IMG/VR virus record: IMGVR_UViG_3300020385_000069 | Span: 1 to 22,242 of that record | Reading direction: 5' to 3' (one strand) | DNA length: 22,242 nt | Source of the DNA: a virus | Shown here: piece after piece, positions 1,200-21,737 of the stretch | How positions within the stretch are numbered: position 1 is the stretch's first letter | Layout: every line of letters starts with the position of its first letter | The notes under the pieces: generated by a model | Told to the model about the DNA's origin: nothing | Databases searched by the model: none | Seen by the model: the letters and a program-made list of their open reading frames with translations, nothing else | Position numbers and translations under genes: made by a program

Positions 1200-3500
1200 T
1201 TATTCGTTTTCAGAAATACGCTTTGCCCAAGATACCATCGCCGCACCACCCCAAAGGTTGTACGCAACATATCCCCGGTCTTTCCACGGCTCATCTTTAT
1301 ATTGTGGGTCAATCTTTGCATTGTCCTTATGTCTTGCCAAAAAGGAGTTGACACGCCTTACGGTATCCAACGATAATGCCTCACGACTTGCAAGTTGATT
1401 GGCTCTCTCCCATCCGACCCTTGTCCCACCTTTGACAACATCACGACCATATTTCTCACGCCATTCCAACATTCGCTTGGCGTTGTTGGTTGCACCTTGT
1501 GGGTAATCAGAATAAGTTTCTGCCTTTACGGTTTTACCCTTTGATGATAATGGGTGTTCTTCCGGTAGTAAATCGGTATCGTATGCCCTTCTCTTGAATT
1601 TGCCAGTTCTAAGTGCGTAAAGCAATCCGTTGACCCTACCTAATGCCCATTGATCTTCACTCGATACATTTGGTCGCACCGATGATGGGTTTGTTCGATA
1701 TGCACCAATCCCCCTTACAAATGACCGTGCCAACATTGAATATGTTGCCCTTTTTGCCGGGTTGTCACCATATTCCTCATTGTGGTCTTTTACTTTATTA
1801 CGCAACGCCGTTTCCATCGCCCCACGAATCTTTGGTGCTTTTTGGATGATTTGATCCTCGCTGATTGTGTCGGTATCTTCATCATCATCATATCGACTAT
1901 CAAGTTCGAAATTGTATTCAAAAGAATCGGCATCCATTTCGCCGTAAAATTCATCAAGGCGATTTTCTTTTGCCGCCTCATATTCCTCGTGGGTTTCAAA
2001 TGGCATATAAATCGTGTAACCATCGTAAATATGGGAATGATATCCATCCCCTCCCATTTCTCTTGCTCTACTTTGTGCCTCACTTATTGTTGTAAATACA
2101 TCATTCATACCCGGCACTTGTCTTTTCTCTGCCGGTTCAATTTCTATTGGTTCGGGTGTCATATCGGGCATATCGGAATCACCAAGTGGCAAAAGATTCG
2201 CCGGGATGTAGTATTCATCCATTCTTTCGTTTTCCTCATCCTTACCATAAGACATCGCCGCTCGTTTCTCGTTTGGTGTCAGCCACCACGCTTGGGACAT
2301 CTGAGCAACCACCTTATCGGTTTCCTCTTGCAGTTCCGGGATGGTAGTATAATCAAAATCAATAAACACCTTTTCGCCATACTTGGGTGCTAACCAACGA
2401 TTCAGTTCATCCCTTATTTTCATAAGTTCGGGAATCACCGAGTTAGTGTATAACATTTTTCGTGCCTCTTTTATATTGTTGTACGTTGCCGATTCAACAT
2501 TGTTAAGCAATACCGCCGGGACATTGTAAACGTTGCAAAGGTCTTTGATGGTGGTGTTATACTGTTCGATTAGGGAAAGGTCTGCGGCGTTTAATCCAAA
2601 GTTGACCCACGACAATTTCTTGGGGGTAATGATAACATCCCCGGCATTGTTTGAACCTTGATATTGTTGTCTGAATTTCTCCTTGAGTTGCTTGGCTTGT
2701 ACTTCATTCAAATCTCCTTCCTCGGACATAAGAACACCCCTTGCCGTTTGGTTTTGTAGATATTTGACCCCGGTAGTAAGTGCCTCATTGTTGGCATCCA
2801 TTGATCTGAGTCCGGCTCGTAATGGTGACATACCATAAAGGTTTTGTCCCGACCCATCGAAATAGGGATTGAAATCTTTGATATGGCAAACATCATCGGC
2901 ATCGATTCTGAATGTACCATTATATTCTAATGTATAATGGTCGACCGGTTTCATAAACCCACCGGAATGGATTTCCATCGCTTGACTTGGCAAAACATAA
3001 AGTTCGCCATACTTGGATTGGTTTGCACCCCTCTCCGGTGTAATTCCGTAGATATAACGGTTTCCGGTTAACTTACCAAATGCAATGACCTCGGTCAAGA
3101 ACGATGCGTAAGACTGTGCGGGGTTTGGTCGGTTCAACAGTTCGTGGATTTCAGTCCCCTCCAATTCAATCATTTCGTTTTTCAAAATGACTTGTGCCTT
3201 GTGAGTTGCGTTGGCATCGAATCCGTTTGATGTTAGTGCCTTATATCTTTTAAGGGAATTTTGACTTTGCACCTCATAAACTTGGAACGGCACCGTTGAT
3301 GCCGCCTTTGTTATAAGGTTGACAATCGAATAAACGGTTGAGTTGAAACGATATCCCTTGTTGATATAAGAATCATCATTCTCTGCACTCGTGATTATTG
3401 TATCGCCTAAAAAGTTGTAAATCGCCCGATTAAATAGTTGATTTGTGGCTTGACTGTTTTTAGTCACGAGCCTTTTGAAATTATCGAATAGTGATGCCAT
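1200..3500 (-). CDS. HK97-family portal protein with long C-terminal extension
   Basis: The first ~430 of 766 residues are a HK97-type portal, the dodecameric ring through which DNA enters and leaves the head. Family-like segments include STVYSIVNLITKAASTVPF (54-72), LLNRPNP (121-127), GKLTGNRYIY (142-151), YGMSPL (222-227), VPAVLLNN (327-334) and STYNN-like ATYNNIKEARK (338-348). HK97-type portals are usually 400-500 residues, so about 300 residues are extra. The extra part contains an acidic linker, a small module (VFTTISEAQSRAREMG...YTIYMPFETHEEY, 468-507), an Asp/Glu-rich stretch (514-549), a basic module (553-650, including NVSSEDQWALGRVNGLLYAL at 611-630) and a terminal basic module (666-762, with NNAKRMLEWREKYG and YNLWGGAAMVSWAKR). 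I recall similar short modules attached to phage structural proteins but know no assigned function. The ATG at 3500 follows a candidate -7 element. Confidence 0.9.
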   Translation of the reverse strand: MASLFDNFKRLVTKNSQATNQLFNRAIYNFLGDTIITSAENDDSYINKGYRFNSTVYSIVNLITKAASTVPFQVYEVQSQNSLKRYKALTSNGFDANATHKAQVILKNEMIELEGTEIHELLNRPNPAQSYASFLTEVIAFGKLTGNRYIYGITPERGANQSKYGELYVLPSQAMEIHSGGFMKPVDHYTLEYNGTFRIDADDVCHIKDFNPYFDGSGQNLYGMSPLRAGLRSMDANNEALTTGVKYLQNQTARGVLMSEEGDLNEVQAKQLKEKFRQQYQGSNNAGDVIITPKKLSWVNFGLNAADLSLIEQYNTTIKDLCNVYNVPAVLLNNVESATYNNIKEARKMLYTNSVIPELMKIRDELNRWLAPKYGEKVFIDFDYTTIPELQEETDKVVAQMSQAWWLTPNEKRAAMSYGKDEENERMDEYYIPANLLPLGDSDMPDMTPEPIEIEPAEKRQVPGMNDVFTTISEAQSRAREMGGDGYHSHIYDGYTIYMPFETHEEYEAAKENRLDEFYGEMDADSFEYNFELDSRYDDDEDTDTISEDQIIQKAPKIRGAMETALRNKVKDHNEEYGDNPAKRATYSMLARSFVRGIGAYRTNPSSVRPNVSSEDQWALGRVNGLLYALRTGKFKRRAYDTDLLPEEHPLSSKGKTVKAETYSDYPQGATNNAKRMLEWREKYGRDVVKGGTRVGWERANQLASREALSLDTVRRVNSFLARHKDNAKIDPQYKDEPWKDRGYVAYNLWGGAAMVSWAKRISENE

Positions 3501-3517: not shown

Positions 3518-3525
3518 CAAAAATA
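3518..3525 (-). promoter_or_regulatory. Candidate Bacteroidetes -7 element upstream of portal
   Basis: The minus strand reads TATTTTTG, matching TAnnTTTG, 17 nt before the portal ATG, in the 45-nt gap after the PAPS-reductase-like gene. No TTTG lies at the usual ~20-nt spacing upstream, so only half of the promoter is visible. In AT-rich DNA this match can arise by chance. Confidence 0.3.
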
Positions 3526-3545
3526 ATAATTAAATATCAAAGGAG

Positions 3546-4394
3546 TTATATTCCACAATAACCAGAATCGCATTCGTTAAAATCATCTTCAAACATATTG
3601 ACTTGTTTAAAGCTATTTCTTATCTGCTCGTATGTTACTCCGTTTTTAAAAGTTCTTATATTATATCCCGTTTCTTGTTCAGCATCTACAAACCAATTAA
3701 ACTTAATTGGGTGTTTATCACTCATCAATTTTAAAAGGACTTCGTTTCTGTGAAAACAACCAATGCAATTATTCATATACGCAAATCTTACTTCTTTACC
3801 TATCCAAAACTGTTCAACATTGTCTTTGTAGATATTATCATCTATAAGTGGAAATATAGGTTTTTGCCATCCTATTTCTGCCCACTTGTTTTGTGTTTTT
3901 CTTTTTCCAACAATTACTTTGTGTGTAAGCAATCCATCTTCATTTTGCCTTTCATACATTTTTTTTGCTCTACGTTGTTCGTTTGCTCTGTAACCTATTC
4001 TTGTTTCTATTGGTTTATTTATATTAGTTTGCCACCACTTAAAAATTGGGTTAAGTTTCATTTCTGTTGTGCAAAACCTTTGAGTTACATTAGGTAAATA
4101 TTTCTTGCCTTTTCTTAAAATAATTTCATCAAATGTTTTACCCGTTACCCAAGTTATTTTTCTACCTATGTATTGCTCTAAATCTAACATAGTGTAGATA
4201 ATCATATCATCTTCGGCAGTTGCAATAAATGGTGCTTGTATTCTATCCTCTACCTCTTGCCTTATCTTCTTATCAGAAAATTTAGATGCCTCGTGTTCGA
4301 TTCTTACAAGTGCAAACACATCGTAGTCAGCCGGATAATTAGCGGCAATATAAGATGATGTTTTGCCACCGCTTAAACTGTTTACTGTTTTCAT
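3546..4394 (-). CDS. PAPS reductase-like (adenine nucleotide alpha-hydrolase) protein
   Basis: This 282-residue protein opens with the PP-loop SGGKTSSY (8-15) that binds the adenylyl pyrophosphate in PAPS reductases and related N-type ATP pyrophosphatases. It continues with RFCTTEMK (106-113), an Arg-rich GYRANEQRRA (134-143), C210-x2-C213, and a C-terminal CDSGYC (275-280). The cysteines at 108, 210, 213, 275 and 280 could hold an Fe-S cluster or act in sulfur chemistry, but that is inference. Such genes are common in phages and islands, and relatives (DndC) take part in DNA phosphorothioation; no Dnd partners are visible here. It interrupts the terminase-portal pair, and its DNA is much more AT-rich than its neighbours (for example 13 G+C of 60 at 4081-4140 against 30 of 60 at 4681-4740), suggesting later acquisition. 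Substrate unknown. Confidence 0.85.
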   Translation of the reverse strand: MKTVNSLSGGKTSSYIAANYPADYDVFALVRIEHEASKFSDKKIRQEVEDRIQAPFIATAEDDMIIYTMLDLEQYIGRKITWVTGKTFDEIILRKGKKYLPNVTQRFCTTEMKLNPIFKWWQTNINKPIETRIGYRANEQRRAKKMYERQNEDGLLTHKVIVGKRKTQNKWAEIGWQKPIFPLIDDNIYKDNVEQFWIGKEVRFAYMNNCIGCFHRNEVLLKLMSDKHPIKFNWFVDAEQETGYNIRTFKNGVTYEQIRNSFKQVNMFEDDFNECDSGYCGI

Positions 4395-4426
4395 TTAAAA
4401 AAGTTTGGTTGTCTAATTTAATATAA

Positions 4427-5623
4427 TTAAATAACAAAGAAGTCATTTCGCTTGGAGTATTGCGAATAAACTCCGTATCGAAGACAGTCCATTTGGTGGT
4501 TCAGCCGATCTTGTGGCTTGTTTATAATTGTGCCATCTTTTAACTGTTCCCAATAGTATCCATTGTATTCCTTAAATATGTTTTTGGATTCTTGGCTCAC
4601 GATGACATCAAACTCCTTGAGTAATGAAATCCCGGCGGTGATTGACCCTTGACCCTTGATTGCCGGTTTGCAAACTATTCCCAACCTTCGGAGTTCCTCC
4701 CCGGACTTGGGTTCGGCACTATCATAAAACGTTAACACTTGATCATAACCATTTGCCTTGAAATAATCAGCGATGTCACCGTTGGTCATACCGGTGTTGT
4801 ACAAGATTTCGTGGACATACAATTTATCTGACTTGCGGAATATTATTGCCGCCGCCGATGGATCGTTGCTAAATCCAAAATCCAATCCAATGACCGCCTC
4901 GGTATGCAAATCAAATTCCGGAAAATCTTTGTGAGGAATAAATTTCCAATTGTTGAATATCTGCCGGGCGGAAAAGATTGCCTTTTGACCCTCACCAAAA
5001 ACCCTCCAATAATCCGGATCACGCTCACGCATCCTTTCAATCTCATAAACAAGATCATCAGACAAAAACATATTGTCTTTGTAAGTGGTGATCCAAGTAT
5101 CACAATCCTCCCTTGGGATGATATCATCATATATCCAATGTACCGGGTCGGATGGATTGAAGTCCATAATTATGTTGTCGGTGGTTCTCATATTGATTTG
5201 GCGAAAGTCCTCAAGTAATAATTCGTTTGCCTCATTTAGCACGGCGATATTTCTCTTTCTCCCACGGATTTTCTGCGGCAAATCAACAGATAAAAATTCA
5301 ACAAAGTGTTTGCCATACCTAAAAGTGTTCTCCGCTTTATTGTGATTGCCATCGAAATACATCCCGGTCTGTTCTAATATAGAAATAAAGTCCCTTTGAA
5401 TAGAGCCTTTTAATGCCGGTAATGTTTTTCTTATAAGGGAAATGGTAAGTGGTTCTTTTGCAGTCGTTAGAATGTACGCCACATATTGACAGATGGCGTA
5501 TGTCTTACCACTTCGAGTCCCTCCTTGTAGGACTTTGAATCTTTTATTTGAATTTATTAAATCGTAGAATTGGCGATTACACTTCTGTTCTACTACTCCG
5601 ATTCCCTTTTTGCCGGTTTCCAT
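4427..5623 (-). CDS. terL: Terminase large subunit (PBSX/Terminase_3-like)
   Basis: The 398-residue protein is the packaging motor ATPase and nuclease. The ATPase half shows Walker A GGTRSGKT (34-41), the Walker B-like NIAVLNEANEL (125-135) typical of the PBSX-like terminases, and MDFNPSD (153-159). The nuclease half has VIGLDFGFSNDPSAAA (244-259, D248), FYDSAEPKS (299-307, D301) and LNHQMDCLRY (374-383, D379), the three acidic residues expected for the RNase H-like fold. Length and domain order are complete. The ATG at 5623 gives a 31-nt overlap with the small subunit gene; no other in-frame ATG precedes the Walker A motif, so I keep it. It is followed after a 32-nt gap by the PAPS-reductase-like gene rather than directly by the portal. 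Confidence 0.96.
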   Translation of the reverse strand: METGKKGIGVVEQKCNRQFYDLINSNKRFKVLQGGTRSGKTYAICQYVAYILTTAKEPLTISLIRKTLPALKGSIQRDFISILEQTGMYFDGNHNKAENTFRYGKHFVEFLSVDLPQKIRGRKRNIAVLNEANELLLEDFRQINMRTTDNIIMDFNPSDPVHWIYDDIIPREDCDTWITTYKDNMFLSDDLVYEIERMRERDPDYWRVFGEGQKAIFSARQIFNNWKFIPHKDFPEFDLHTEAVIGLDFGFSNDPSAAAIIFRKSDKLYVHEILYNTGMTNGDIADYFKANGYDQVLTFYDSAEPKSGEELRRLGIVCKPAIKGQGSITAGISLLKEFDVIVSQESKNIFKEYNGYYWEQLKDGTIINKPQDRLNHQMDCLRYGVYSQYSKRNDFFVI

Positions 5624-5958
5624 TCAATTAATGTTGACTTGATTCCGCCATCGTGTTTTATTTCTTGCCTTGTTCCATTCAGTCGATGTGCCTCGTGTTC
5701 CTCAGAAATCATTTTCATCGCCGCAATTTGTAGTGATGGCGTTTCCGAATCAATCCAGTTGGAAAGCATTTTAGTTTTTTTAGATATACGCATTTCCTCA
5801 ACTGCCTTTTTTATGGCGTTAGATTCGTTAAGTTTTAAGTCATAAAAAGTAGGTTTTGAACAAGGTAAAAAAGCAATTATATGTTCCAAAAACATCAGTT
5901 TGTGTTTTTCGATAGCAATCAACGCCTTTTTTTCAAGTTCTTTTTTATCGTATGCCAT
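5593..5958 (-). CDS. terS: Terminase small subunit (putative)
   Basis: A 121-residue protein directly upstream of and overlapping terL, the canonical place for the small terminase subunit that selects viral DNA for packaging. Residues 27-48 (IIAFLPCSKPTFYDLKLNES) look like a helix-turn-helix, followed by a charged helix (49-75) that could mediate oligomerisation. The C-terminal part (DGGIKSTLIEWKPAKRESE) would contact the large subunit, by analogy. This sequence type resembles small terminase-like proteins that I recall from Bacteroidetes phages. Start ATG at 5958 overlaps the stop region of the preceding small gene by one base. Function is from position and the HTH-like segment rather than strong motifs. 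Confidence 0.75.
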   Translation of the reverse strand: MAYDKKELEKKALIAIEKHKLMFLEHIIAFLPCSKPTFYDLKLNESNAIKKAVEEMRISKKTKMLSNWIDSETPSLQIAAMKMISEEHEAHRLNGTRQEIKHDGGIKSTLIEWKPAKRESE

Positions 5959-6119: not shown

Positions 6120-6321
6120 CCTTAAATTTTTTGTAAAGGTAAATATAAAATTCTTTCCACTTGGTGTCATATTCTTTTTTGGAATATGTTTTGCCGGATG
6201 TTTTGGGTTGTCCGTTTATCTCATAAACCAAAATATATTCCTTTCCTTGGGGTTTTGGATAACATCGGATGGAGTTACTTTCACACCAACGGAAAGCGTT
6301 GTAATATTCGTTTAAATTCAT
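6112..6321 (-). CDS. Small hypothetical protein
   Basis: A 69-residue, Lys/Tyr-rich protein of unknown function. Visible features are a Trp/Cys motif (FRWCESNSIRCYP, 10-22), a predicted beta-hairpin (EYILVYEINGQPKTSG, 28-43), and a basic aromatic helix at the end (WKEFYIYLYKKFK, 55-67). Its start ATG overlaps the methyltransferase stop by one base (6321), and its end overlaps the next small gene, so it is tightly embedded in the operon. The Tyr-rich, charged tail could bind nucleic acid, but nothing proves it. Confidence 0.65.
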   Translation of the reverse strand: MNLNEYYNAFRWCESNSIRCYPKPQGKEYILVYEINGQPKTSGKTYSKKEYDTKWKEFYIYLYKKFKDV

Positions 6322-6965
6322 TAAAATATTTCTAATTGATTTATATTTTCTTTTCTTATAATTCCCAAAGCGGTTTCTAATATTGTTTTACCAGCCTCAA
6401 AATCTACCAAGTTTCTGCCAATTTTAACTTTATTTTGTTTCCCTTTATATTTATTTAAATCAATGTTATGAAATTTAGATAAAATTTTAAGTTCGTTTTT
6501 TGTTTGTGATATTGCAATCCTTCTATCATTTAAATTATTTGGTAAGTTAAAATTTGTCCAATATAAATGCCTCCCTCTTTTATGAGCAATAATTAATGGT
6601 TCGTAATATGGAATAACATTTTCCACCACAAACTTACCCTTAAAATGATGTTTCAAAAAAAGTATTTCTTGATACAATTTCATATCAGGATAAACTGGAT
6701 TTTTTCCATTTGCACCTATTCCCCAAAACCTTGCTCTACTATGAGATGGACAAGGGGGCGATGTCCATATAAAATCAAACTCTTTATAGTGGTCTAATAA
6801 ATATTGATGTGCATCAGTAACAACAACTTTATCTTTTGGAAATCTTTCTTGATATAATCTTGCACATTCAGGGTCTAATTCAACGGCAGTAACCTCAACA
6901 TCAGTCACTTCATCCCATTTGTAACGGTTACCACCTAAACAAGCATATAAATTTAAAATTTTCAT
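6321..6965 (-). CDS. Cytosine-C5 DNA methyltransferase, compact
   Basis: A 214-residue protein with C5-methyltransferase motifs: motif I variant NLYACLGGNRYKW (5-17) for S-adenosylmethionine binding, VELDPE (28-33, motif II), DAHQYL (51-56), the catalytic SPPCPSHSRAR (69-79, C72, motif IV), FVVENV (112-117, motif VI) and RGRHLYWTN (130-138, motif VIII). It would methylate phage DNA, probably to evade host restriction. Standard enzymes are over 300 residues with a target recognition domain of about 80 or more between motifs VIII and IX; here only ~40 residues separate motif VIII from the possible motif IX/X region (GRNLVDFEAGKTILETALG, 183-201). The DNA is more AT-rich than the replication genes (12 G+C of 60 at 6481-6540). 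No cognate restriction enzyme is adjacent, so it is an orphan enzyme. Confidence 0.88.
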   Translation of the reverse strand: MKILNLYACLGGNRYKWDEVTDVEVTAVELDPECARLYQERFPKDKVVVTDAHQYLLDHYKEFDFIWTSPPCPSHSRARFWGIGANGKNPVYPDMKLYQEILFLKHHFKGKFVVENVIPYYEPLIIAHKRGRHLYWTNFNLPNNLNDRRIAISQTKNELKILSKFHNIDLNKYKGKQNKVKIGRNLVDFEAGKTILETALGIIRKENINQLEIF

Positions 6966-19240: not shown

Positions 19241-19663
19241 TTACGAGTTGACCGCAGTTGTGATTGTTCCGGTAGTCACGATTGTACCTGAATAGGTAAC
19301 CGCACTTTCCATTTCGCCACTTGTTTCAATTGAAGTGATAAATCCTTCACCTGAAAAAACAGTATCTCCGCTTGTTGTTGTTCCAAAAGACCAATCGATT
19401 TTTGAACGGTTTTCCATTAGCGTAGCCATTGCCGGTACGTTTGTGGTATCCGTATAATCAACAAGACCTTCAAAGCTAATTTCTCCGCTTCTAAGTCCTC
19501 CAATTACCTCTTGATAACCTGCTGAGTCTTTGCTTGTTGCCTCCGGGGCATCCATAGACAACGAAAGAGATGCACTCGTTGAGTGACCGATAGTTGCTAA
19601 AGTACCGCCATCAGCGATGAATTTTAATAATAAATTTGTTCCGTTGTAAACAGTAGATGCCAT
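19241..19663 (-). CDS. Major tail tube protein (TP901-1-like)
   Basis: A 140-residue beta-rich protein matching phage tail tube proteins of the TP901-1/Phage_tail_2 type: GTNLLLKFIADGGTLATIGH (8-27), LSMDAPEATSKDSAGYQEVI (35-54), GGLRSGEISFEGLVDY (55-70), GDTVFSGEGFITSIETSGEM (98-117) and AVTYSGTIVTTGTITT (120-135). It forms the stacked hexameric rings of the tail tube. It is followed 12 nt later by the chaperone gene, as expected. The length is typical. No C-terminal Ig-like decoration is present, in contrast to many tube proteins. The start ATG at 19663 lies after a TATATTTG element, consistent with separate strong expression of this abundant protein. Confidence 0.92.
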   Translation of the reverse strand: MASTVYNGTNLLLKFIADGGTLATIGHSTSASLSLSMDAPEATSKDSAGYQEVIGGLRSGEISFEGLVDYTDTTNVPAMATLMENRSKIDWSFGTTTSGDTVFSGEGFITSIETSGEMESAVTYSGTIVTTGTITTAVNS

Positions 19664-19679
19664 AATTCTTTATTTTTTA

Positions 19680-19687
19680 CAAATATA
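19680..19687 (-). promoter_or_regulatory. Candidate Bacteroidetes -7 element upstream of tail tube gene
   Basis: The minus strand reads TATATTTG, a full TAnnTTTG match, 16 nt before the tail tube ATG and in a 43-nt gap, large for this genome. No TTTG is found at the expected upstream distance. Spacing to the start codon is nearly the same as for the element ahead of the portal gene (17 nt). Confidence 0.35.
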
Positions 19688-19706: not shown

Positions 19707-21737
19707 TTAATTTATTACTTCTGCATAAAGTTTAAAAACTTCATCGCCTTCTAATGCTCTGTTAAAAATCCTTACTTGATCCATTAATCCATCAAAATAA
19801 AGTGTTCCATTTTGTCTTCCAATACGACAATTATCACTTTGTCCATAAGGTGTTTGTGTAGTTGTACCTAATAAGTTACCATTTAAAAACACCTCAACAT
19901 TTACCGCAGAGCCAAAACTTCCTAATGAGTAAGAGGATGCAAAACCTGTCATATTTACAACAATATGATTGTATTGGCTTGTCCAAGTTGTTGAATTAAT
20001 TAAGGTGCTTTGTCCTGCCGTGTTTTGTGTTAATGAATCAGAACCCGAGCCATAAGCATAAGAAACTAAAATTCCGTTTCTATTGTTAATCATATAAATA
20101 GGTCTTGAACCTCCGAGAGTATCGGCTTTTGCCCAAAAAGAAATGCTTGCATCATTACTATTTAAAGACAATGGAGTTTGTATATAATCATTCGACCCAT
20201 CAAAACTTGCTGAATAAGTACCAAATAATGCATCCGTTGTTGTAAAAGTTGCACCATAGTTTGTTCCGTTATTTGACCCGGTACTATCATTGGCATTGTT
20301 TTCCATTTTGTAAAAAGCAATTTCATTGCCATCACCAAAAGGATTGGATGCGTTTTTAGTTATGTATGCTTGTTTTTCATTTTCGAATAAATAATCAATG
20401 TTTGATGGGCTTAATACAGAACTAAAAATGCGGACTTGGTCTATACTACAATCAGGCAGCCAAGAAGTAAAAAGAGCCCCGCCCGTAGCATACATCTGAC
20501 CAATAGTGAATGGATTAGTTGTTGCCACTCTTGTTACGGTTAACGTTTGAGTAGTTTCAAGTGAACCATTAATAAAAATTTGTACTGTATTTCCTGACAT
20601 TGTTACGGCACAATGAACCCAAAGACCCGTGTTTACATTGGAAGTACTTGAAACTGTCGGATTATCAACAGTTGAAGCGTTGCCGGTTTTTATAGCTAAT
20701 TTATTAGATTGTAAAGCTATCTGTAAGTTGCCCCAATAGCTTGTATATCCTTCACCCATTAATGCTTGCGTGCTTGTTTCTGTTGATTTTAACCAAAAAG
20801 AAATAGTTACGGTCGATAGAGATGGTTTTGATGCATTAGAAACCTCTATTCGACTACTTCCATTAAACACCGCAGCAGCCCCAAATCTTCCAAATTCATA
20901 AGTAACATTTGTTTCAGTACCATCATAGGCAGTAACGCCCATCGATTCTTTTGCATCAGAATCAAGATTGTAGTTAGCAATGCATCCAAATAAATGACTT
21001 TGGGTTGTTCCGGTGTAAACACAAGCGGTCTCAGTATAAAGTGTGTCCATTTGTGATTCAGTCAAAGCCGAAGTAAAAAATCTTACTTGGTCAATGTCAC
21101 CGTTAAATATGTATCCCACCGTTGTTGCATAATAACCAACTTGAATAAATTTAGCATTTTTAGTTCCTGAGTTTAATGTATGATTTATATCAGGGGTATT
21201 ATTTCCATCTATAAATAACTTTTGTGTGTTATCACTTGTGTTATTTATTAAAACGAGGTTATGCCAATTTCCGTCATTTACTACGGTAGTTCCCGAAGTA
21301 AAACTTCCCCCACCCGAAAAACTGTTTCCAATATTGAGAGTTCCATTTGCATTTGTTTGAACATAAAAGGCATATTTTACACCATCATAATCATTTATAA
21401 TCGCTTTGGCTGATGTTACGGTAGTTTTAATCCATAATGAAATACTAAAAGTAACTCTTGCAGTTGCATTATTCCCTATCCCACCATCTGCAATTGATAT
21501 ACTGCTATTAGTACCATTAAATCTTGCACCCCAATTTATTTGCCCATCAATTCCGAACTCAACGTTGGTACTCGTGCCTGAGTAATCAGTAGTCGCATCC
21601 GGGGCGGTACTTGCATCATAATCCAAAGAATATAATGCAACGCCGTGTCCATCATCAAAAATGTCTGTTGTGTCAGTTGTACAAGATGGTGTAACCCCTC
21701 CTGAGCCGGTAGTAATTAATCTTTTGCCTATGCTCAT
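19707..21737 (-). CDS. Triple LamG-domain surface protein (putative receptor binding)
   Basis: A 676-residue protein with a short N-terminal anchor (MSIGKRLITTGSGGVTPSCT) followed by three tandem concanavalin A/LamG-type modules at about 30-236, 248-455 and 468-676. Each shows the family pattern: an opening with a strand such as IANYNLDSDAKES or IAFYKMENNANDSTG, then RFNGTNSSISI, VFNGSSRIEVS or SFDGSNDYIQ, a strand with ISFWLKS or ISFWAKA, and a closing IDQVRFF/IDQVRIF/MDQVRIF with ALxxxxxxxLY-like ends. LamG domains usually bind glycans, so the protein probably decorates the virion and contacts the host or its polysaccharide. It precedes the tail tube gene by 43 nt and starts with an ATGA overlap with the upstream gene. 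Whether it sits on tail or head is not clear from position. Confidence 0.85.
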   Translation of the reverse strand: MSIGKRLITTGSGGVTPSCTTDTTDIFDDGHGVALYSLDYDASTAPDATTDYSGTSTNVEFGIDGQINWGARFNGTNSSISIADGGIGNNATARVTFSISLWIKTTVTSAKAIINDYDGVKYAFYVQTNANGTLNIGNSFSGGGSFTSGTTVVNDGNWHNLVLINNTSDNTQKLFIDGNNTPDINHTLNSGTKNAKFIQVGYYATTVGYIFNGDIDQVRFFTSALTESQMDTLYTETACVYTGTTQSHLFGCIANYNLDSDAKESMGVTAYDGTETNVTYEFGRFGAAAVFNGSSRIEVSNASKPSLSTVTISFWLKSTETSTQALMGEGYTSYWGNLQIALQSNKLAIKTGNASTVDNPTVSSTSNVNTGLWVHCAVTMSGNTVQIFINGSLETTQTLTVTRVATTNPFTIGQMYATGGALFTSWLPDCSIDQVRIFSSVLSPSNIDYLFENEKQAYITKNASNPFGDGNEIAFYKMENNANDSTGSNNGTNYGATFTTTDALFGTYSASFDGSNDYIQTPLSLNSNDASISFWAKADTLGGSRPIYMINNRNGILVSYAYGSGSDSLTQNTAGQSTLINSTTWTSQYNHIVVNMTGFASSYSLGSFGSAVNVEVFLNGNLLGTTTQTPYGQSDNCRIGRQNGTLYFDGLMDQVRIFNRALEGDEVFKLYAEVIN

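Follow-up and report, generated by a model that had tools for sequence, protein, structure and literature searches.

The four proteins SspABCD act jointly in single-strand DNA phosphorothioation, with SspD as the ATP-pyrophosphatase. The accessible portion of PMC7188994 agrees with this joint action and reports a complex of SspD with the cysteine desulfurase SspA, whose sulfur SspD is thought to accept. PAPS-reductase-like proteins are also present in BREX type 4 (PMC12839542) and are likewise carried by type IV-B CRISPR systems (PMC8175902), as stated in the available parts of both papers. In phages, cysH/PAPS reductase genes have been treated as auxiliary metabolic genes of sulfate assimilation that steer sulfur cycling (PMC7785012 and PMC10914622, in their accessible sections), and PADLOC flags SspD in three Sinorhizobium prophages, the authors leaving its affiliation open in the part of the report available (PMC12429752). 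This last report is the nearest precedent we found: in the accessible text of the literature searched, which covers few subscription papers, no account of the phage clade treated below as SspD-like was found.

The locus lies in a virus record of 22,242 bp (hereafter the window), in which all ten ORFs profiled first are on the minus strand. A gene with an ATG start and a 282-residue product (3546..4394, minus strand), labeled a PAPS reductase by PHROGs through a match to phrog_424 (E 2.6e-23), is flanked on its 5' side by the gene for the terminase large subunit, terL (4427..5623, minus strand; PF04466 1.7e-21 and TIGR01547 above cut-off), and on its 3' side by an HK97-type portal protein gene (1200..3500, minus strand; PF04860 3e-58). 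A putative terminase small subunit (5593..5958, minus strand), without a profile match, was named by position and reading. The first-pass annotation had described a gene with a PP-loop and cysteine pairs between terL and portal, within an AT-rich island. Its placement and loop were borne out, with SGGKTS at residues 8-13 (4356..4373, minus strand; T for the usual D, by alignment and motif count), as were the cysteines, since C108, C210, C213, C275 and C280 are invariant in our 37-sequence alignment, A1. The gene has indeed a lower GC content (0.320, GC3 0.251) than terL (0.404) and portal (0.431), but "island" applies only in a relative sense, as the record mean is 0.364, many other ORFs fall at 0.27-0.35, and the methyltransferase gene (0.288), a replication-initiation-like ORF (0.320) and several small ORFs are equally AT-rich. 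Elsewhere in the window, a 676-aa ORF at 19707-21737 reads as repeated lectin/LamG-like blocks.

Three further motifs mark the protein: RFCT at residues 106-109 (4068..4079, minus strand), the start of an R-x-C-T-x2-[LM]-K-x2-P motif common to SspD and DndC; CIGC at residues 210-213 (3756..3767, minus strand), which by motif alignment is part of CxGCFH; and, by motif count, a C-terminal cysteine pair, CDSGYC, at residues 275-280 (3555..3572, minus strand). Motifs were counted in 132 relatives, i.e., loci L001-L145 minus twelve duplicate contigs and minus the window itself (L081); because these are the best-scoring matches listed from two scans, distant relatives are under-represented. Counting ran from stop to stop, since ATG-only ORF calling clipped 29 of the 132 loci (L004, L007, L020 and L024 among them); in several of the clipped loci viewed, the aligned start is TTG. 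All 132 relatives carry SGG[KRQ][TS]S and none SGGxDS, all carry both R[FYW]CT..[LMTI]K and CxGCFH, and 131 have CxxxxC near the C terminus, the exception (L023) stopping at its contig end. ECGLH, found in 20 of 20 CysH references, occurs in none of the relatives, and those same references have neither RxCT nor SGGx[DT]S (each 0/20). SspD references share RxCT, CxxCF and the terminal cysteine pair (14/14), and DndC references have RxCT and CWxCT (7/7) with no C-terminal pair (0/7).

Profiles of the phage clade were compared by hhalign with those of SspD, DndC, CysH and CysD. The match to SspD reached E 2e-13 over 202 columns and that to DndC 3e-5 over 46 columns, with CysH and CysD each at about 2e-3. 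The PADLOC SspD model matched all 37 members of A1, and two DndC models matched 4 and 2; as the same SspD model scores DndC proteins about equal to the window's protein, a match to it does not by itself amount to membership. Pfam PAPS_reduct matched 0 of the 37 members, and the window protein matched no Pfam family at E values up to 5. Matches of A1 members to Pfam NAP (7 of 37, E down to 2e-4) and Phage_Coat_A (one) were taken as composition noise.

Two trees were examined, one of 81 rows (without reference rows L168, L205 and L221, although L205 was kept in the CysH profile) and one of 50 rows, from which 31 of the 81, long ones among them, were left out. SspD, two SspD-like prokaryotic rows and the phage clade were joined with support of 95/88 and 99/95, respectively, and CysH and CysD split off at 100/99 in the 81-row tree. 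SspD formed a single clade excluding the phage protein in both (100/100 with 14 references in the 81-row tree; 100/99 with 8 in the 50-row tree); three of the SspD reference loci adjoin SspB/SspC matches. In the 50-row tree, a union of phage and CysH proteins was rejected (AU p 0.007), and a strict clade of phage and SspD proteins without rows L183 and L184 scored a little below the free tree (p 0.21), since these two rows fall between SspD and the phage clade. The phylogeny against DndC and CysH that the first-pass annotation had proposed thus separates the protein from CysH and leaves a union with DndC formally unrejected (p 0.09). DndC membership was nonetheless set aside, as the window protein has CIGC followed by FH in place of CWxCT and no credible partner DndD was found in 37 phage records. 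The relatives named at the outset, DNA sulfur-modification proteins, are indeed related, the nearest characterized family being SspD rather than DndC by the hhalign values above. The further suggestion, that phage copies might affect host sulfur metabolism, is unsupported as far as a CysH role goes, since the protein lacks the hallmarks of CysH and a joint clade with it is rejected by the tree. Altogether, these sequence comparisons support that the phage clade is very likely an SspD-like sister group and not SspD proper, and that the protein is almost certainly not of the CysH type.

An AlphaFold2 model built from 37 sequences had a pLDDT of 83.9, with a poorly ordered C terminus (below 50 at residues 280-282). 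Foldseek against the PDB gave no match at E 0.001; its top three rows were ph0300, NcsA and TtuA (E 1.4e-3 to 3.6e-3), those of NcsA and TtuA being described with a [4Fe-4S] cluster. VIA-align against the PDB placed PAPS/APS reductases first (Z up to 10.2), followed by GMP synthetases (up to 9.5) and by NcsA, TtuA and LarE (8-9), scores so close that the fold alone cannot choose among these families. In BFVD, three viral proteins reached E 0.001; two of them carry a PAPS reductase annotation, and one has no name. A PDB sequence search with the window protein returned no match, and profile matches at E 0.2-5 were taken as chance; one SspD reference is itself without a close PDB relative. With an SGG-type PP-loop on the predicted superfamily fold, the modeled protein is a member of the PP-loop ATP-pyrophosphatase superfamily.

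Among 45 contigs with a related terL, both terL and portal were placed in 42, and the claim that the gene interrupts their usual order was confirmed by 40 empty sites, where the two genes are 29-37 nt apart. In the other pair, L001 and L256, which are close to the window, the gap measures 926 nt and holds the gene. For 22 of the empty sites, terL identity to the window's copy is 94-97%, and a 29-nt spacer is shared by every one of them, which indicates recent gain or loss of the gene; for the other 18, terL identity is 65-72%. An occupied site is 897 nt larger than a close empty one, and site comparison with the 22 defined a clean 897-bp insertion reaching from terL to this spacer (3530..4426, minus strand). 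It is bounded by imperfect 24-nt direct repeats at its portal-side and terL-side ends (3526..3549 and 4423..4446, both unstranded), 88% identical and with a start-to-start spacing of 897, the second being mostly the 3' end of terL. Between pairs of SspD-like genes, dN was 0.06-0.21 (n = 7), with dS about 1.2-1.8 in five of the seven and not computable in two; judged from these sequences, purifying selection acts on the gene.

TAnnTTTG is the Bacteroidota -7 promoter consensus. The 29-nt spacer kept 5' of portal includes TATTTTTG, a promoter-like motif of this form between the insert and portal (3518..3525, minus strand). The motif was conserved in all 40 empty spacers, and in all 12 when only distinct ones are counted (0.66 expected after shuffling), and was absent from the 32-nt stretch separating terL from the inserted gene and from the last 200 nt of terL. 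These motif positions would place the gene on the terminase transcript and give portal its own promoter; thus, the inserted gene probably extends the terminase operon, and portal probably retains its own promoter. The minus strand of the window holds twelve TAnnTTTG motifs altogether, of which those at 19687, 18501 and 3525 stand just upstream of late-gene ORFs starting at 19663, 18489 and 3500.

A terL match was seen at 57 of the loci of the first 80 relatives, and in 49 of the 57 terL identity to the window's copy did not exceed 46%, against 63-91% for the SspD-like protein. By this comparison of sequences, the SspD-like gene moves among phages that are unrelated and differ greatly in their terminases. 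Phages with a window-like terL or primase carry the gene at no fewer than three different sites: between terL and portal in the window, L001, L002, L037-L039 and L042; between a short cytosine methyltransferase gene and the next small ORF in L008; and 5' of the primase in L029 and L032, terL and portal adjoining in L032. The L037 protein (A1row18) falls outside the cluster of the window protein in the 81-row tree, which, given their shared terL/portal site, suggests separate arrivals.

The positions of six neighbor families were compared with 5,000 permutations in the 40 of 73 non-redundant loci in full view, 33 being left out; p values are uncorrected, and the figures are approximate because six families were tried and were defined with a simple ORF caller plus single-linkage BLAST. 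terL lay within two genes of the SspD-like gene at 16 of 24 loci (6.2 expected), a count as high in 0 of 5,000 permutations, and terS-like families did so at 13 of 25 (6.8 expected, p 0.008). A DnaA-HTH/VRR family was near by mean distance only (p 0.011), being within two genes at 8 of 24 loci (5.7 expected), and DUF3799 exonuclease-like and HNH families showed no nearness to the gene by permutation. No constant partner gene was found among the 73 non-redundant loci, families being named partly by reading, and no shared flanks or transposon ends were seen in 21 relatives compared by eye. The terminase bias may simply mark a permissive module boundary.

Methyltransferases are frequent in carrier phages (45 of the 73 non-redundant loci). 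DNA methyltransferase genes lay within two genes of the SspD-like gene at 9 of 26 loci (8.9 expected, p 0.57 by permutation), i.e., no nearer than chance, and a methyltransferase partnership was rejected for this lack of enrichment; a specific link to the adjacent cytosine methyltransferase, raised in the first-pass annotation, is likewise unsupported. The window's short C5-cytosine methyltransferase-like gene (6321-6965, 214 aa, with a PF00145 match at residues 1-79 only) is itself variably present among close relatives. Ten relatives have, in the slot between the small ORF and terS, a 357-389 aa ORF read from its sequence as ParB-like plus DNA methyltransferase (L252:6540-7652, and similar ones in L253, L254, L256 and L260-L265); the same ten carry a different small-terminase-like ORF, and the window is without the ParB-like/methyltransferase gene at that place. 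A slot 3' of the primase holds HNH-like or full-length C5-methyltransferase-like genes (L243:5660-6130, L277:604-1230 and L273:5561-6757), and in Aureispira sp. CCB-QB1 (L151:9283-9972) an adenine-methyltransferase-like ORF stands directly 5' of the relative, all again named by reading. One contig, L146 (NYTN01000016.1, 19,158 bp; noted alongside L140), is filed under a Rhodobiaceae MAG, a host label that is doubtful because the contig equals an IMG/VR phage contig in length and its neighboring ORFs match viral-locus proteins at 100%.

Partner genes were sought in 37 longer records: the window, 30 other IMG/VR records and six named phages. The six are complete genomes and were searched whole; the 31 IMG/VR records, the window included, may be fragments, so that absence from them is no proof and a system could lie outside. 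The cysteine desulfurase family PF00266 was found in 0 of the 37 phage records, with its control detected in 14 of 14 genomes; SspB in 0 of 37, with a model that detected no named control but did detect 3 of 3 Ssp genomes; and SspC in 0 of 37, with its control detected in 6 of 14. DndD gave one 13-bit match in the 37 records, taken as chance, compared to 240-248 bits in two positive-control genomes. That the window has no other Dnd-type genes, as first noted, therefore holds for the models tested and extends to the 37 records. On the host side, of 296 sampled genomes of the phylum to which G002 (Flavilitoribacter), a Bacteroidota carrier, belongs, 13 had strong SspD matches (E 4e-48 or better). 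Genomes of the same phylum also contain a second SspD-like lineage (L241 and L242, i.e., rows L183 and L184), which branches between SspD and the phage clade and has CxxC and C-terminal cysteines, with SGGAAS as the loop of L183.

We propose that the gene forms a horizontally mobile cassette by itself and that its product, a solitary SspD-like enzyme expressed late, transfers sulfur or an adenylyl group onto nucleic acid in an ATP-dependent manner, a reading to which we give an even chance. Its chemical core, transfer of sulfur or an adenylyl group onto nucleic acid, is argued by analogy and could fall either way; DNA rather than RNA as the substrate is a more tentative choice, and a product that is specifically phosphorothioate is unlikely. 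In this scheme, the gene would be transcribed late together with the terminase genes, and the enzyme would use ATP to adenylate an oxygen on nucleic acid. Persulfide sulfur would come from the host's housekeeping cysteine desulfurase, IscS or SufS, a supply proposed by analogy with SspD accepting sulfur from SspA, and would be relayed via CxxC and the flexible C-terminal cysteine pair to the adenylated site, the poorly ordered C terminus serving as a swinging arm. The late, terminase-linked position favors the phage's own DNA, before or during packaging, as the likeliest substrate, and virion DNA so marked would resist host nucleases. The most specific version, in which a solitary T-loop enzyme marks phage DNA with sulfur (or an adenylyl-derived group) at packaging by way of a host cysteine desulfurase and without SspB/SspC, is doubtful; as SspABCD act together, a lone enzyme is unlikely to make the Ssp mark without borrowing host components. 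The replacement of D by T in the PP-loop is the clearest sign that the chemistry may differ from that of SspD and, judged from the loop residues, could mean an altered or lost ATP chemistry.

Several other explanations bear on the same data. If the protein were a CysH-type PAPS/APS reductase boosting host sulfate assimilation as an auxiliary metabolic function, this would agree with its PHROGs label, with the fold it has in common with PAPS reductases (Z of about 10), with the RefSeq label of the relative in Cellulophaga phage phi19:3 (the GenBank twin is a "hypothetical protein") and with the interpretation of such phage genes in the accessible sections of PMC7785012 and PMC10914622. This reading was ruled out by the motifs, with the ECGLH of the references missing from every relative and the SGG-type PP-loop of every relative missing from the references, by the Pfam null and by the tree, and we regard it as highly improbable. 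A tRNA or RNA thiolase, or another adenylating enzyme of the NcsA, TtuA and LarE type with RNA or a free nucleotide as its substrate, would fit the CxxC with further cysteines and the proteins that head the Foldseek rows, although all of those matches are weaker than E 0.001; sequence, trees and the tail tie the protein to SspD, the terminase-linked position suggests a late, DNA-related role, and we consider an enzyme of this kind unlikely.

It is less probable still that the protein serves counter-defense as an SspD/DndC look-alike, titrating cysteine desulfurase or jamming host Ssp, Dnd or type-4 BREX. An accessory, exchanged gene encoding an SspD-like protein without partner genes is what such a mimic would look like, SspD does bind SspA (PMC7188994, accessible portion), and strong SspD occurs in the 13 sampled genomes; yet Ssp is uncommon in the sampled phylum, and the catalytic-type motifs, conserved in 131 of 132 relatives, favor activity beyond mere binding. 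There is very little chance, in our estimation, that the gene is a passive passenger, a cassette that is selfish or neutral and merely occupies a permissive junction: its motifs are invariant and purifying selection on it is strong, both of which count against this reading, as does the absence of shared flanking ends in the relatives compared by eye, against the single-gene content, the direct repeats and the presence or absence among close relatives that would suit it.

The clade has at least 595 matching stretches in IMG/VR, and for it the sequence evidence favors SspD-type nucleic-acid chemistry over sulfate reduction. Were the most specific version above real, phages would be trading a single-gene system for DNA sulfur modification or end marking that surveys would have misread as cysH. 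A lone phage enzyme with SspD-type chemistry would be far simpler than Dnd or Ssp as a DNA-sulfur system; should the gene do no more than jam host systems, it would represent counter-defense of a new kind. The presence of relatives in isolated phages (Cellulophaga phi19:3, Nodularia and Roseobacter phages) makes the question directly testable by mass spectrometry.

Compared to known systems, the phage protein has in common with CysH its overall fold (VIA Z 9-10), but it lacks the ECGLH tail and has an SGG-type PP-loop and RxCT. With DndC it shares the RxCT motif and the PAPS-reductase superfamily; however, the seven DndC references are longer (345-472 aa) and all have SGGxDS in addition to CWxCT, and the profile match is confined to 46 columns. 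BrxP of type-4 BREX is an SspD-related enzyme of a phosphorothioate-type system that is often fused to DUF4007, according to the accessible text of PMC12839542, whereas the phage protein has 282 aa and neither DUF4007 nor extra domains. Direct relatives are found in the phrog_424 phages, including Cellulophaga phi19:3, Nodularia kac68v161, Roseobacter CRP-821 and Salmonella Chi, the phrog_424 relatives being 23-38% identical to the window protein (23 records). The phi19:3 relative keeps SGGKTS, RWCT, CxxCFH and the tail pair, and that of Chi is without RxCT and has SGGQSS as its PP-loop. No terminase is annotated within 3-7 kb on either side in these four phages, and phage C72C1 has a small terminase gene some 2 kb downstream of the relative. 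In Chi, the "ninC-like" PAPS reductase relative gp42 overlaps a nucleoside 2-deoxyribosyltransferase gene (L232:2977-4334), a possible nucleotide-modification pairing. SspD differs in having SGGKDS where the phage protein has SGGKTS, a CxxC tail where the phage protein has CxxxxC, and SspA/B/C encoded with it, none of which was found in the 37 phage records; it is nevertheless the named family nearest to the phage clade in the trees, and the two have RxCTxx[LM]KxxP, GxRxxE, CxxCF and a C-terminal cysteine pair in common (14 of 14 SspD references).
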